From NCBI RefSeq assembly GCF_001548115.1, contig NZ_AP014821.1, forward strand, positions 2,359,262 through 2,423,261: a stretch of 64,000 nt of DNA. Direction: 5' to 3'. The position numbers and the translations under genes are program-made. Origin of the DNA: Geminocystis sp. NIES-3709 (GTDB lineage Bacteria; Cyanobacteriota; Cyanobacteriia; Cyanobacteriales; Cyanobacteriaceae). Positions 2,386-58,084 of this stretch are shown one piece after another (position 1 is the stretch's first letter; every line of letters begins with the position of its first letter). The notes under the pieces were generated by a model. The model ran no database searches. It was not told the origin of the DNA and saw nothing but the letters and a program-made list of their open reading frames with translations.

Positions 2386-3597
2386 CTATGGTTCAACCCA
2401 TCTGCCATCAGCTTTAATTAAGTTGATTAATTCGGTTACGCCCTCAGTTTCTGGCACTTTTTTGATTTCTTCTTTGCCACGATACAAGGAAATAAAACCG
2501 GGTTGTTTACCTACATAGCCATAATCAGCGTCAGCCATTTCTCCAGGCCCATTTACAATACACCCCATAACGGCTATATCTAACCCTGTTAAGTGTTTTG
2601 TGGCTTCTCTTACTTTGTGTAATACTTCTTCTAAATTAAATAAAGTACGTCCGCAAGAAGGACAAGCTACATATTCCACCATAGTTTTACGCAATCCGAG
2701 GGCTTGTAAAATGCTATAGCAAACAGGGATTTCTTTTTCTGGGGCTTCTGTTAAAGATACTCGGATAGTATCGCCGATGCCTTCAGCCAATAATGTACCA
2801 ATACCTGCGGTGGACTTGATACGGCCATATTCTCCGTCTCCTGCTTCGGTAACGCCTAAATGTAAGGGGTAATCCATGCCTAATTCGTCCATGCGTTTTA
2901 CCATTAAGCGATAAGCCGATAACATTACAGGTACTCTGGAGGCTTTCATGGAGATGATGAGGTTACGGAAATCTAATGATTCACAGATTTTAATAAACTC
3001 GATCGCAGATTCTACCATACCTTCGGGAGTATCTCCATAGGTAAAGAGCATTCTTTCGGCTAAAGAGCCATGATTAACCCCGATACGCATAGCTTTTCCT
3101 TGATCTCTTAAGGAAATCACCAAAGGTTCCAGAGTTTCCCTAATTTTATCCCCAATATCAGCAAATTCTTTATCACTGTAATCTGTTCGATCGTTTTTAG
3201 GTTTTTCAAAGACGTATAAACCCGGATTAATACGCACCTTATCAACGTGTTTAGCCACCTCAAGAGCGATTTTCATGCCATTATGGTGAACATCAGCGAC
3301 TAAAGGGACATATTGATAGGTTTTGATCAATTTTTCCTTAATTTCTCCCACTGCCTTAGCATGGGCAAGACTTGGCACTGTCACTCGTACAATTTCGCAA
3401 CCAATTTCATGTAAACGACGAATAGCGTCAACAGAAGCAGATACATCGAGGGTATCTTCATTTATCATGGATTGCACTACTACGGGATTATTTCCGCCGA
3501 TAGTAATGTTACCTATTTTAACAGGGCGAGTTTTACGGCGATGAATTGTACCATCAAAGAGATTCAGGCTAGGTAAGGGTTTATCTATAGTTTGCAT
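2386..3597 (-). CDS. ispG: 4-hydroxy-3-methylbut-2-enyl diphosphate synthase (ferredoxin)
   Basis: A 403-residue IspG/GcpE, the penultimate step of the MEP pathway: reductive conversion of methylerythritol cyclodiphosphate to HMBPP with a [4Fe-4S] cluster. In cyanobacteria the electrons come from ferredoxin. The cluster ligands are visible as CPSC (Cys312, Cys315) and Cys346 in CIVNGPGE, with Glu353 as the fourth ligand expected for this family. The N-terminal TIM barrel contains RVTVPS and ADVHH. The start is ATG at 3597. No clear Shine-Dalgarno is visible: the leader on this strand is an AT-rich spacer preceded by 18 TAACTCC heptamers. It lies downstream of ndhH on the same strand. Confidence 0.95.
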
Positions 3598-3610
3598 ATT
3601 TAATTAATTA

Positions 3611-3736
3611 GGAGTTAGGAGTTAGGAGTTAGGAGTTAGGAGTTAGGAGTTAGGAGTTAGGAGTTAGGAGTTAGGAGTTAGGAGTTAGGAGTTAGGAGTT
3701 AGGAGTTAGGAGTTAGGAGTTAGGAGTTAGGAGTTA
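3611..3736. repeat. Heptamer tandem array, 18 x GGAGTTA, in ispG leader
   Basis: Eighteen uninterrupted copies of the 7-bp unit GGAGTTA (+ strand) fill 126 of the 194 bp between ndhH and ispG, ending 13 bp before the ispG start codon. Read in the ispG direction the unit is TAACTCC. No mismatch between copies was seen, which points to recent expansion or active slippage. This matches the short tandemly repeated repetitive (STRR) heptamers known from cyanobacteria. Confidence 0.97.
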
Positions 3737-3791
3737 AAAAATTCTCCCCAACACCCCAATAGCCTAATACCCCAACACTCCAATACTCTAC

Positions 3792-4976
3792 CTATCGATC
3801 GACCGATCCCATAATTACGTCAATACTACCAAGGATTGCCATAATATCAGCAACCTTGACTCCTTTAAGAAGGTGAGGCAGAATTTGTAAATTATTAAAA
3901 TCAGGGGCGCGGATTTTCCAACGCCAAGGGAAAACATCATCATTCCCCACAATAAACACCCCTAACTCGCCCTTACCACTTTCTAGGCGGACATAATGTT
4001 CACCTGCTGGAATTTTGAAGGTGGGGGCAACTTTTTTGGCAATGTATTGATACTCAAAGTTATTCCATTCGGATTTTTTGCCTTCTTGCAGTCTTTTGGC
4101 TTCTAAGTTTTCATAGGCACCACCGGGTAAACCTTTTAAGGCTTGACGGATGATTTTTACCGATTCGCGCATTTCTCTAATTCTAATGATATAACGGGCA
4201 AAACAATCACCTTCCGTTTCCCATTGCACATCCCAATCAAAATCATCGTAACATTCATAACGATCGACTTTACGCAGATCCCATTTTACCCCTGAACCAC
4301 GCAACATAGGCCCTGATAAACCCCAGTTAATAGCTTGTTCTCTGGTAATAGTACCGATGCCTTCAATCCGTTTACGGAAAATAGGATTATTGGTGATTAA
4401 CTTCTCATATTCATCCACTTTAGGTAAGAAATAATCGCAAAAATCTTCACACTTGTCCACCCAACCGTAAGGCAAATCAACGGCAACTCCTCCAATACGG
4501 AAATAGTTGTTATTAATTAAACGCATTCCTGAAGCGGATTCCCATAAATCATAAATCATCTCTCTTTCACGGAAAATATAGAAAAAGGGAGTTTGTGCGC
4601 CTACATCTGCTAAAAAAGGGCCAAGCCATAGTAAATGGTTAGCTATGCGGTTTAACTCTAACATGATGACTCGGATATATTGCGCCCGTTTGGGTACTTG
4701 AATATCCGCTAATTTTTCTGGGGCGTTGACGGTAATGGCTTCGTTAAACATTCCTGCGGCATAATCCCAACGACTAACATAAGGTACATACATTACATTA
4801 GTTCGATTTTCAGCGATTTTTTCCATGCCTCGATGTAAATAACCAATGACGGGTTCACAATCTACCACATCTTCACCATCAAGGGTGACAATTAGCCTTA
4901 AAACCCCGTGCATGGAAGGATGATGAGGCCCCATATTGAGAACCATTGGTTCTGTTCTAGTTTCTATTTTAGCCAT
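3792..4976 (-). CDS. ndhH: NAD(P)H-quinone oxidoreductase subunit H (NDH-1)
   Basis: A 394-residue homologue of the 49-kDa/NuoD subunit of complex I, in the peripheral arm of cyanobacterial NDH-1, where it helps form the plastoquinone site. Visible family signatures are [13 protein letters not shown] near residue 15, [10 protein letters not shown] near 43, and [11 protein letters not shown] in the middle. The C-terminus, [18 protein letters not shown], is the conserved end of the family. Length agrees with NdhH (about 394). The start is ATG at 4976. It stands apart from other ndh genes here, as ndhH often does in cyanobacteria. Confidence 0.96.
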
Positions 4977-8240: not shown

Positions 8241-9788
8241 ATGGATAATTATTCTTCTGCTAATTTACGTTTAATTAATTCTAATTCAGGACAAGAAAAT
8301 CATTATATTCTCTCTACTAATAAGCCTAATTTAATAGGTCGATCGCCAGAATGTCAAGTAATTTTAAATCCTCAAGAATTTATTACGGTATCTCGTATTC
8401 ATGCTCAAATAGAGTTTATATCTCAAGACGATCGAGGTTATTGGCAAATCACAGATAACTATACGACTAATGGCACTTTAATTAACGGAGAAAAAATTAC
8501 TGATTCTTATATTTTAAAATCAGGCGATCGGATTATTTTAGGATTAAAAGGACCAGAATTTATTTTTGAAACTGAAATTGTAAATTCGATTTTAAATTCA
8601 ACGGTTTTAGTAGAATTAACAGAAGAAGAAAGTACCATTTTAGAAATAGTAAAAGAAGAAGAAATAACGGAAGAATCGATCGAAGAAATTGAAGAACTAA
8701 ATCAAGAGGATATTGAAGAAATTATAGAAGATAGTGAGGAGATAATAGAAGAATTAAAAATAGTTGAAGTACAAGAACAAAAAGAAGAAATTATCGAATC
8801 AAAACAAGTCGTAATTACTCCTACAGAAATTATTGTTAATATTCCTACCAATCAGGATAAATTGTTATCAAATATCGTTGAAGAAAATATTTTACCGACA
8901 GAAATTATTGACAATGTAACCAATAAAAATATTGAACAAACTAAAACGGAAATAATCAGCAATGAAAACATTCCCAATTTTTCTGTGGAAAATAAATTGG
9001 CTACTACTACTATTTGGAATTTATTTAATTTTCAGGAAATAACACATATTGAAGCAGAGCAAAATAGTATTCAATGTTTGGCTTTGAGTGATGATCAAAA
9101 AATGATTGTCAGTGGTGGAAATGATAACTTAGTTAAGTTATGGAATATCGAAGAAAGAGAAGAAATTGCCTCTTTTTCTGGTCATAAAATGGCAGTAAAT
9201 GGAGTAAGTATTAGTCCTGATAATAAATTAATTGTTAGTGGTGGAAATGATAAATTAGTCAAGTTATGGAATATCGAAGACAGAAAAGAAATAGCCTCTT
9301 TTTCTAGTCATAAAATGGCAGTAAATGGAGTAAGTATTAGTTCTGATAATAAGTTAATTGCTAGTGGTAGTAGTGATAAATTAGTTAAGTTATGGAGTGT
9401 GGAAGATGAAAAAGAAATAGCTTCTTTTACTGGGCATAAAACAGAAATAAATACAGTTGTTTTTAATCATAATAATGAACTTATTGCCAGTAGCGGAGGA
9501 GATCAACTTATTAAACTGTGGAATATAAAAACTAAAGCAGAAGAAAAGACTGTCAAAGCAGAATTTAAGTTTCCCATTACAGGCTTATTTTTTCATCCAA
9601 ATAATACCTCTATCATATGTATCAGTCAACAAGATCAAAAAGTTTCTTTAATTGATTTAGACAGTGAATTAGAATTATTTAGTTTTCATATTCCCTCTAA
9701 ACTTTCTGATTTAAAATTTATTAGTATGAATGGTAGTTTTTTTCTTAGTATTAAAGACAATAAAATGCTGATCAATCAGTTAAATTAG
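8241..9788 (+). CDS. FHA domain - acidic linker - WD40 repeat protein
   Basis: About 515 residues in three parts. An N-terminal FHA domain (about 10-115) has the phosphothreonine-binding signature: GRSPEC, SRIHAQ and TTNGTLING. A Glu/Ile-rich linker (about 125-255) is low in complexity and strongly acidic. The C-terminal half (about 260-515) is a WD40 propeller with four clear blades, each ending in KLW plus two residues, then two weaker ones. FHA domains bind phosphothreonine made by Ser/Thr kinases, and WD40 propellers are protein-binding scaffolds, so a signalling scaffold is inferred. Two middle blades are nearly identical in DNA, suggesting recent duplication. ATG at 8241 is preferred over GTG at 8232. 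Confidence 0.85.
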   Translation: MDNYSSANLRLINSNSGQENHYILSTNKPNLIGRSPECQVILNPQEFITVSRIHAQIEFISQDDRGYWQITDNYTTNGTLINGEKITDSYILKSGDRIILGLKGPEFIFETEIVNSILNSTVLVELTEEESTILEIVKEEEITEESIEEIEELNQEDIEEIIEDSEEIIEELKIVEVQEQKEEIIESKQVVITPTEIIVNIPTNQDKLLSNIVEENILPTEIIDNVTNKNIEQTKTEIISNENIPNFSVENKLATTTIWNLFNFQEITHIEAEQNSIQCLALSDDQKMIVSGGNDNLVKLWNIEEREEIASFSGHKMAVNGVSISPDNKLIVSGGNDKLVKLWNIEDRKEIASFSSHKMAVNGVSISSDNKLIASGSSDKLVKLWSVEDEKEIASFTGHKTEINTVVFNHNNELIASSGGDQLIKLWNIKTKAEEKTVKAEFKFPITGLFFHPNNTSIICISQQDQKVSLIDLDSELELFSFHIPSKLSDLKFISMNGSFFLSIKDNKMLINQLN

Positions 9789-39112: not shown

Positions 39113-39154
39113 GTTAGGTGTTAGGTGTTAGGTGTTAGGTGTTAGGTGTTAGGT
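39113..39154. repeat. Heptamer tandem array, 6 x GTTAGGT
   Basis: Six exact copies of GTTAGGT lie in the gap between aroB and mgtE, upstream of mgtE and about 130 bp beyond the aroB stop. The unit differs from the GGAGTTA of the ispG leader. Confidence 0.95.
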
Positions 39155-39282
39155 GCAGCCCTTCAATGAATACATGAATACTAAAAGAAAAGACTCTGAT
39201 AGACTAAATTATAAATTATCTATCAGTATATCTAAACCTTTAATTTAAAAGCCTTCTGATTTATTAAGCAAACTCCAATTAC

Positions 39283-51168: not shown

Positions 51169-52332
51169 TTATCTTCTGTTTCTGGCTTCAGGACTGTTAT
51201 AAATAGAATTTCGGACAAATTCGATCGATTGTCCATTCATAACTAAGTTTTGAAAATACTCTGATCCCCTTTCATCAGCATTACGACCTAAAAACTCTTG
51301 GTAGATTTTATTAATAGCTTGATTAAGTTCTGGTTTACTGGCAACTTCACGACGCACTTGCACTAAAGACCAATTTTGATCATTTATTTTTTGAGTATAA
51401 TTTTTTAGGTCATTAGAATCAGCGTTACGTCCTAAAACTTGAATATAGATATTGTTGATTTTGTCTTCAACACGAGTATTATTACTACTATTATTGTTCC
51501 TTCTGTTTACAGCCTCAGGACTATTGGCAACCGCATTTCTGACATAATCAATATTTCTACCATTAACAATTAAATTTTGAAAATACTGTAATCCAGCAGG
51601 ATCAATATTTCTTCCCAGTATTTCTTGATATATGCTTGTAATTGCTTGATTGGTTTCTGAATTGCGAGCAATATCATTTCGTACTTGTTCAAAAGACCAA
51701 TTTTGATTATCAACTTTTTGAGTATAATTTTTCAATTCACTAGAATTAGCGTTACGCCCTAAAACCTGAAGATAAATACTGTTGATTTTTTCTTCAACAC
51801 GAGAATTATTGATGTTATCGTAATTATTTCTGCTTCTGGCTTCAGGACTATTAGCGATCGCATTTCTGACAAAATCAATGTTTTCACCATTAACAACTAA
51901 GTTTTGAAAATACTGAAATCGAGCAGAATCAATATTGCGTCCTAAGTACTCTTGATACATTCTGTTGATAATTTTATTAAATTCTTGGTCATTGGAGGCA
52001 ATATCACGGCGCACTTGATTTAAAGACCAATTTTGATTATTCATTTTTTGGCTATAATTTCTCAATTCATCAGAATTAGCATTACGTCCTAAAACCTGAA
52101 CATAGGTATTATTAATTTCTCCATCAAAACGTGAATAATTATTGTTGTTATTATTATTATTGTTGCCCTTATTATCGTTATCTCGATACCTGAAACTACC
52201 ATATCCCGGACAATTAATAATATTCTGATTACGTACACAAGTTATTTTTTGAGATTGAGCTAATACGGGAGTAGCACTTATTAAACTGATAGATAATAGA
52301 GTTCCAGTTAAAAGAATAGTAGAAGTTTTCAT
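51169..52332 (-). CDS. Secreted protein with three DUF4214-like repeats
   Basis: About 387 residues. A signal peptide (MKTSTILLTGTLLSISLISATPVLAQS) is followed by a Cys-containing segment and an Asn-rich stretch, then three tandem repeats of about 105-115 residues. Each holds YVQVLGRNANS-like, NQNWS and GRNIDSARFQYFQNLVVNG-like segments, as in DUF4214 domains of surface-layer and calcium-binding proteins. Cell-surface location is inferred. ATG at 52332 is chosen because GGAG lies eight bases before it; a GTG at 52341 would extend it. The repeats imply internal duplication. Confidence 0.8.
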   Translation of the reverse strand: MKTSTILLTGTLLSISLISATPVLAQSQKITCVRNQNIINCPGYGSFRYRDNDNKGNNNNNNNNNYSRFDGEINNTYVQVLGRNANSDELRNYSQKMNNQNWSLNQVRRDIASNDQEFNKIINRMYQEYLGRNIDSARFQYFQNLVVNGENIDFVRNAIANSPEARSRNNYDNINNSRVEEKINSIYLQVLGRNANSSELKNYTQKVDNQNWSFEQVRNDIARNSETNQAITSIYQEILGRNIDPAGLQYFQNLIVNGRNIDYVRNAVANSPEAVNRRNNNSSNNTRVEDKINNIYIQVLGRNADSNDLKNYTQKINDQNWSLVQVRREVASKPELNQAINKIYQEFLGRNADERGSEYFQNLVMNGQSIEFVRNSIYNSPEARNRR

Positions 52333-57950: not shown

Positions 57951-58035
57951 ATTCTTTATTATAAAAATTCGATCGAGATAACCTTTCTATTTTAAAGTTG
58001 ATGGGATGTTTCAGGCAAAGTAATTATTAGCTGAT

Positions 58036-58084
58036 AGTTGACAGTTGACAGTTGACAGTTGACAGTTGACAGTTGACAGTTGAT
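58036..58084. repeat. Heptamer tandem array, 7 x AGTTGAC
   Basis: Six exact AGTTGAC copies followed by AGTTGAT, in the gap between divergent lpdA and the menC-like gene, about 53 bp before the latter's ATG. Confidence 0.95.

Follow-up and report, generated by a model that had tools for sequence, protein, structure and literature searches.

The locus examined here raises the question of why a long run of perfect heptamers stands directly before ispG, a gene of the MEP pathway, and whether it acts as a regulatory switch for that gene. The window, i.e. the whole 64,000-nucleotide stretch of Geminocystis sp. NIES-3709 that was analyzed, carries on its reverse strand ndhH (3792..4976; complex I 49-kDa subunit family, Pfam Complex1_49kDa) and, downstream of it, ispG (2386..3597; Pfam GcpE), separated by a gap of 194 bp. 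Within this gap Tandem Repeats Finder detects a period-7 array at 3608..3736 with 18.4 copies (the value from one assembly) and a 100% match, which reads (TAACTCC)18.4 in the ispG sense and occupies 129 bp; 18 full GGAGTTA units can be read directly from the sequence at 3611..3736. The edge at 3611 lies 13 bp from the ispG start codon, or 10 bp with the partial unit included, and the AT-rich leader that remains (3598..3607, reverse strand) contains no Shine-Dalgarno sequence (SD), none being present in the 30 bases upstream of the start by a 4-base criterion. The earlier note had described the 18 heptamers, their position across most of the gap, their TAACTCC reading in the ispG mRNA and the lack of an SD, and all of these observations hold. 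To them we add a degenerate block of G-rich octamers, TATTGGGG-like in the ndhH/ispG sense, which the same program and the sequence itself place between the ndhH stop and the array at 3746..3786 (reverse strand), with an AT-rich spacer at 3737..3745 (reverse strand) joining the block to the array. In 60 windows of 64 kb simulated with a first-order Markov model, the longest perfect tract of period 7 averaged 15.6 bp and never exceeded 20 bp, as against the 129 bp observed, and the array is far beyond chance. Within the gap a consensus scan detected nothing promoter-like on the ispG strand (6 promoter-like sites in the scan versus 5.8 expected), and likewise no GC stem followed by a T-run, for which reason an intrinsic terminator was set aside. 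Among the literature listed for the TAACTCC/GGAGTTA unit or for ispG repeats we recognised no paper on the ispG array.

A survey of repeats in this genome places the array in a larger population. Among the perfect arrays of at least three copies in 464 kb of the genome (the 64-kb window and twenty 20-kb stretches), eight have period 7 and two period 8, with none of periods 4-6 or 9-12. Degenerate period-7 arrays number 15 in the same 464 kb, and 400 kb of the nearest relative, a sister species (G001), contain 56; none of these 71 lies mostly inside a called gene; 68 were kept for the analysis of gene context, three without both neighbours being dropped. GGAGTTA repeated three times occurs at five places in this genome, and at two of the five the TAACTCC array abuts a start. 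Eighteen copies are long without being a record, as TAACTCC arrays reach 19.4 and 21.0 copies in a congener (G003), and a perfect 26-copy GGGGATT array has been described between pecE and pecF of Nostoc (PMC4692102). The tandem 7-bp units, the intergenic and dispersed distribution and the cyanobacterial host (ispG and ndhH have their best matches and their synteny in cyanobacterial records) bear out the earlier assignment to the STRR heptamers, and the ispG array is a long example of this known, fast-changing class. The window has two further heptamer arrays between other genes, namely a perfect (GTTAGGT)6.1 at 39113-39155 and 7.4 copies of TGACAGT (97%) at 58032-58083, and two long in-gene repeats, with units of about 327 bp (51340-52104, 78% alike) and of 126 bp (9105-9441, 88%). 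In other genomes, two TAACTCC units are joined to further sequence in three identical strings of one genome (G013; TGTACGGGCGAATG) and in five identical strings of another (G014; TAACTCAAATG), which suggests that dispersed elements may carry such units.

The orientation of the ispG array is that expected from a positional rule which we observed across the family. Read in the CTCC sense, TAACTCC arrays are closer to the right-hand gene at 28 of 33 loci (p 7e-5), the loci being all places of TAACTCC x4 in the family genomes with one extra place from this genome, and the ispG array itself obeys this rule. Arrays in the CTCC sense precede starts by 1, 3, 10, 10 and 99-121 bp, those ending 1-10 bp before a start being four in number and found in two genomes, versus none under 63 bp in the GGAG sense; conversely, 14 of 24 GGAG-sense arrays and only 1 of 20 CTCC-sense arrays fall within 8 bp after a stop. 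The rule extends beyond this unit: arrays of any unit with a bias between G and C follow it in 41 of 51 cases in this genome and its nearest relative together, and in 29 of 37 in G014, while in the distant genome G128 no polarity was seen (8 of 13). Arrays no more than 15 bp from a start are C-rich in the mRNA sense in 8 of 8 cases and contain 2 G in 539 nt, a regularity noticed on the same samples that were used for its count; their units include some devoid of CTCC (TAATTCC, TATCAAT-like, CTTAATT and ACCTAAT). At stops, 29 of 36 array-stop pairs have G>C, six G<C and one a tie, three arrays being entered from both sides. In two fresh samples, G014 showed no array beside a start and a G-rich array at 6 of 6 stops; G128 showed two beside starts, both rich in C yet with 7 G in 66 nt, and its stops were divided 3 versus 4. 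The same G/C bias is seen in general gaps of tandem and convergent, not divergent, context, and an avoidance of divergent gaps by the arrays was not significant (10/123 versus 52/433, p 0.26). Given this general rule, CTCC before ispG reflects the tendency of any array in such a place.

Taken together, these observations lead us to favor, with a probability of roughly 70% for the reading as a whole, an origin of the array as an STRR heptamer expanded by slippage, which forms the C-rich arm of a loosely palindromic ndhH-ispG region and is oriented by the general positional rule rather than by any anti-SD role for ispG. The layout along the coding strand runs from the G-rich octamers after the ndhH stop through the short AT-rich spacer to (TAACTCC)18. 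If ndhH and ispG were co-transcribed, the G-rich block would be able to pair with approximately the first five to eight units to form a hairpin between the genes, leaving the other, G-free units as an unstructured, SD-less 5' leader of ispG. The octamer block is the nearby G-rich partner available to the array, and in the folded gap (MFE -35.6) it is paired with the first array units, a possible role that is suggested by the folding model. The predicted hairpin of this genome is, however, no better than those of shuffled sequences of the same composition (z 0.03), whereas the corresponding gap of the nearest relative yields a strong one (z -3.22); a conserved hairpin was therefore rejected. 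Across loci, the spacer opposite the array has G>C in 25 of 32 cases, a bias that comes from G014 (14/14 there, 11/18 elsewhere).

The predicted structure of the start region bears on what the array might do. By the 4-base criterion, an SD is present in 47 of 289 sampled genes of this genome and absent from 242, the gene starts in the sampled stretches being those of a simple purpose-made gene caller; hence ispG is not exceptional in lacking one. The region -20..-1 of ispG has a predicted unpaired probability of 0.95, above the 285 compared genes (mean 0.50), and in an in silico series of copy numbers this value rises from 0.43-0.65 with 0-5 copies through 0.74 with six and 0.86 with eight to a plateau of 0.92-0.94 over 10-30 copies. 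Owing to this plateau, changes of copy number around 18 would have little predicted effect through RNA folding, and a copy-number rheostat working in this way was rejected. The same region is predicted to be paired in the nearest relative (0.30), so that the open start is not shared, which likewise spoke against a conserved hairpin. The folding model allows a threshold role for the array as a spacer, and the nearest relative does not support such a role.

It is conceivable, albeit rather doubtful, that start-abutting arrays form a leader class of their own, consisting of almost G-free mRNA with no SD, no ATG, GTG or TTG and little structure, in which the unit is rewritten to the dominant one of the species while place and polarity are kept. 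On this view the array before ispG would serve as an exchangeable spacer without an SD, shielding the start from the G-rich block 3' of ndhH, with a threshold at around 6-10 copies and no function as a dial. Unlikely, too, is the proposal that the array is kept in order to part the ispG start from that block and to supply an unstructured leader, free of start codons, for SD-independent initiation. The scarcity of G in the arrays adjoining starts, the unusually open predicted ispG start and its dependence on the first ten or so copies in silico are consistent with this, as is a Beta-lactamase2-family gene of this genome in which (TAACTCC)14.4 ends 1 bp before the start (L101:3174-3274); an annotation of the latter as isochorismate synthase was dropped, as Pfam gives Beta-lactamase2. 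When orthologues of this gene were inspected by eye, other low-G heptamer-like runs were seen in G001 and G003, a short one in the congener G004 and none in a further congener, G002, and the gene repeats a pattern in which the place is kept and the unit changed. Against the proposal stand the predicted pairing near the start in the ispG leader of the nearest relative, the derivation of the start rule from its discovery samples, and the fresh samples, in which G014 had no such arrays and the two of G128 were C-rich without being G-free. Moreover, the pattern would be the same under a tolerance filter that removes G-rich arrays ahead of starts.

Comparison with the relatives indicates what has been kept at this locus. 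IspG of the sister species is 97% identical, and in its ndhH-ispG gap the ndhH stop is likewise followed by G-rich repeats, then by an AT-rich stretch and, before ispG, by an array whose unit is CTCCATT. (ATTCTCC)x3 has 274 overlapping matches in that genome and none in the present genome or in the three congeners G002, G003 and G004, and TAACTCC x4 was found in five of the 15 family genomes, its overlapping matches numbering 36 in the present genome, 2 in its sister, 60 in G003, 1 in G004 and 17 in G014. From these counts, in each genome the ispG array is made of a unit that is frequent there, and TAACTCC is not unique to the present one. As the array kept its place while the unit changed between sister species, the sequence of the unit is probably not the decisive feature. 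Among the 13 family genomes that have an ispG match, visual inspection showed array leaders in two. None was found at 80 named ispG loci, whose leaders were covered for at most 400 bp; two of these loci are short of the start, some have less upstream sequence and six are non-cyanobacterial.

In the three congeners ispG lacks an array and does not adjoin ndhH, the two genes being about 177 kb apart in G002 and on different contigs in G003 and G004. Their ispG leaders (L241-L243) share a block of more than 40 bp, which in G002 and G003 ends in GAGG 7 bases before the ATG, and which may hold the ancestral ispG promoter. This raises the question of a rearrangement junction, in which ndhH and ispG were joined through STRR DNA in the ancestor of the two sister species with loss of the old ispG leader. 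An adjacency confined to these two genomes, the lack of an ndhH match in up to 2.5 kb upstream at any of the 80 named loci, and the absence of the conserved block from both sister species within 3 mismatches are in line with such an event, but synteny appears to be generally low and arrays occupy many other gaps too. We regard the junction as improbable as the explanation of the array; it would account for origin rather than function, and is compatible with the favored reading of a slippage-expanded heptamer oriented by the positional rule.

The suggestion of the earlier note that an anti-SD-like (TAACTCC)n run tunes ispG translation with its copy number as a dial is very improbable: it can appeal to CTCC in the unit in the ispG sense, to CTCC in the unit of the sister species and to the four arrays ending just before starts, but the leader has no SD to mask in a genome where most sampled genes have none, the start is predicted open, which is the opposite of sequestration, the response is flat between 10 and 30 copies, some start-adjacent units lack CTCC, the CTCC sense beside a start is what the positional rule predicts, and across the order (148 genomes) no CTCC-sense excess was found within 12 bp of ATG, with 24 rows versus 35 in the GGAG sense, in a search that took any ATG rather than gene starts only, counted overlapping matches and, by its 12-base limit, excluded the ispG array at 13 bases. 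A masking or sequestering leader and a general CTCC-sense excess beside ATG were accordingly rejected as candidates, and an anti-ribosome-site switch for ispG is not supported by the evidence found. An attractive switch for a MEP-pathway gene thus falls away, and a general, testable rule takes its place. Worth following are the virtual lack of G in arrays beside starts and the way in which the unit turns over from species to species; if G-free arrays beside starts aid SD-less initiation, this would have a bearing on the translation of cyanobacterial genes that lack an SD.

REP-like palindromes provide a familiar case of an intergenic G-arm and C-arm layout. Intrastrand triplex motifs (PMC4666352) have the layout seen here as well, and the arms of the ispG region differ from those of both in being unequal tandem repeats. 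Closer are the STRR heptamers upstream of hupS-hupL and hoxW (PMC2670836), which are likewise 7-bp, intergenic and endowed with hairpin potential, and for which roles in transcript stability, translation coupling or termination have been proposed; the ispG array has a different unit, 18 perfect copies beside a start, and a hairpin no better than shuffles in this genome. The TAACTGA direct repeats described in Beggiatoaceae and cyanobacteria (MacGregor 2015, PMC4679880) resemble it as TAAC-first heptamers near starts where the SD is usually missing, but the last bases differ, the unit here being TAACTCC, and most BOGUAY TAACTGA sets are start-adjacent, compared with two of the five TAACTCC arrays of this genome. 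The positional rule itself has a precedent in the GGGNATC and GGGGA(C/T)T heptamers of Xanthomonas and Nostoc (Rehm et al. 2015, PMC4692102), in which the G-strand is described as non-coding immediately ahead of ORFs and as coding immediately behind stops, and which keep their place while length and sequence vary, as is also the case here. Those heptamers are of G-quadruplex type, whereas GGAGTTA has GG only, short of G-tracts of three or more, and some rule-following units such as AATTAAG have no G-tract whatsoever. As GG-only and tract-free units obey the rule, quadruplex potential is not needed for it in this family, and the strand bias published for quadruplex-type heptamers can be extended to units without G-tracts.
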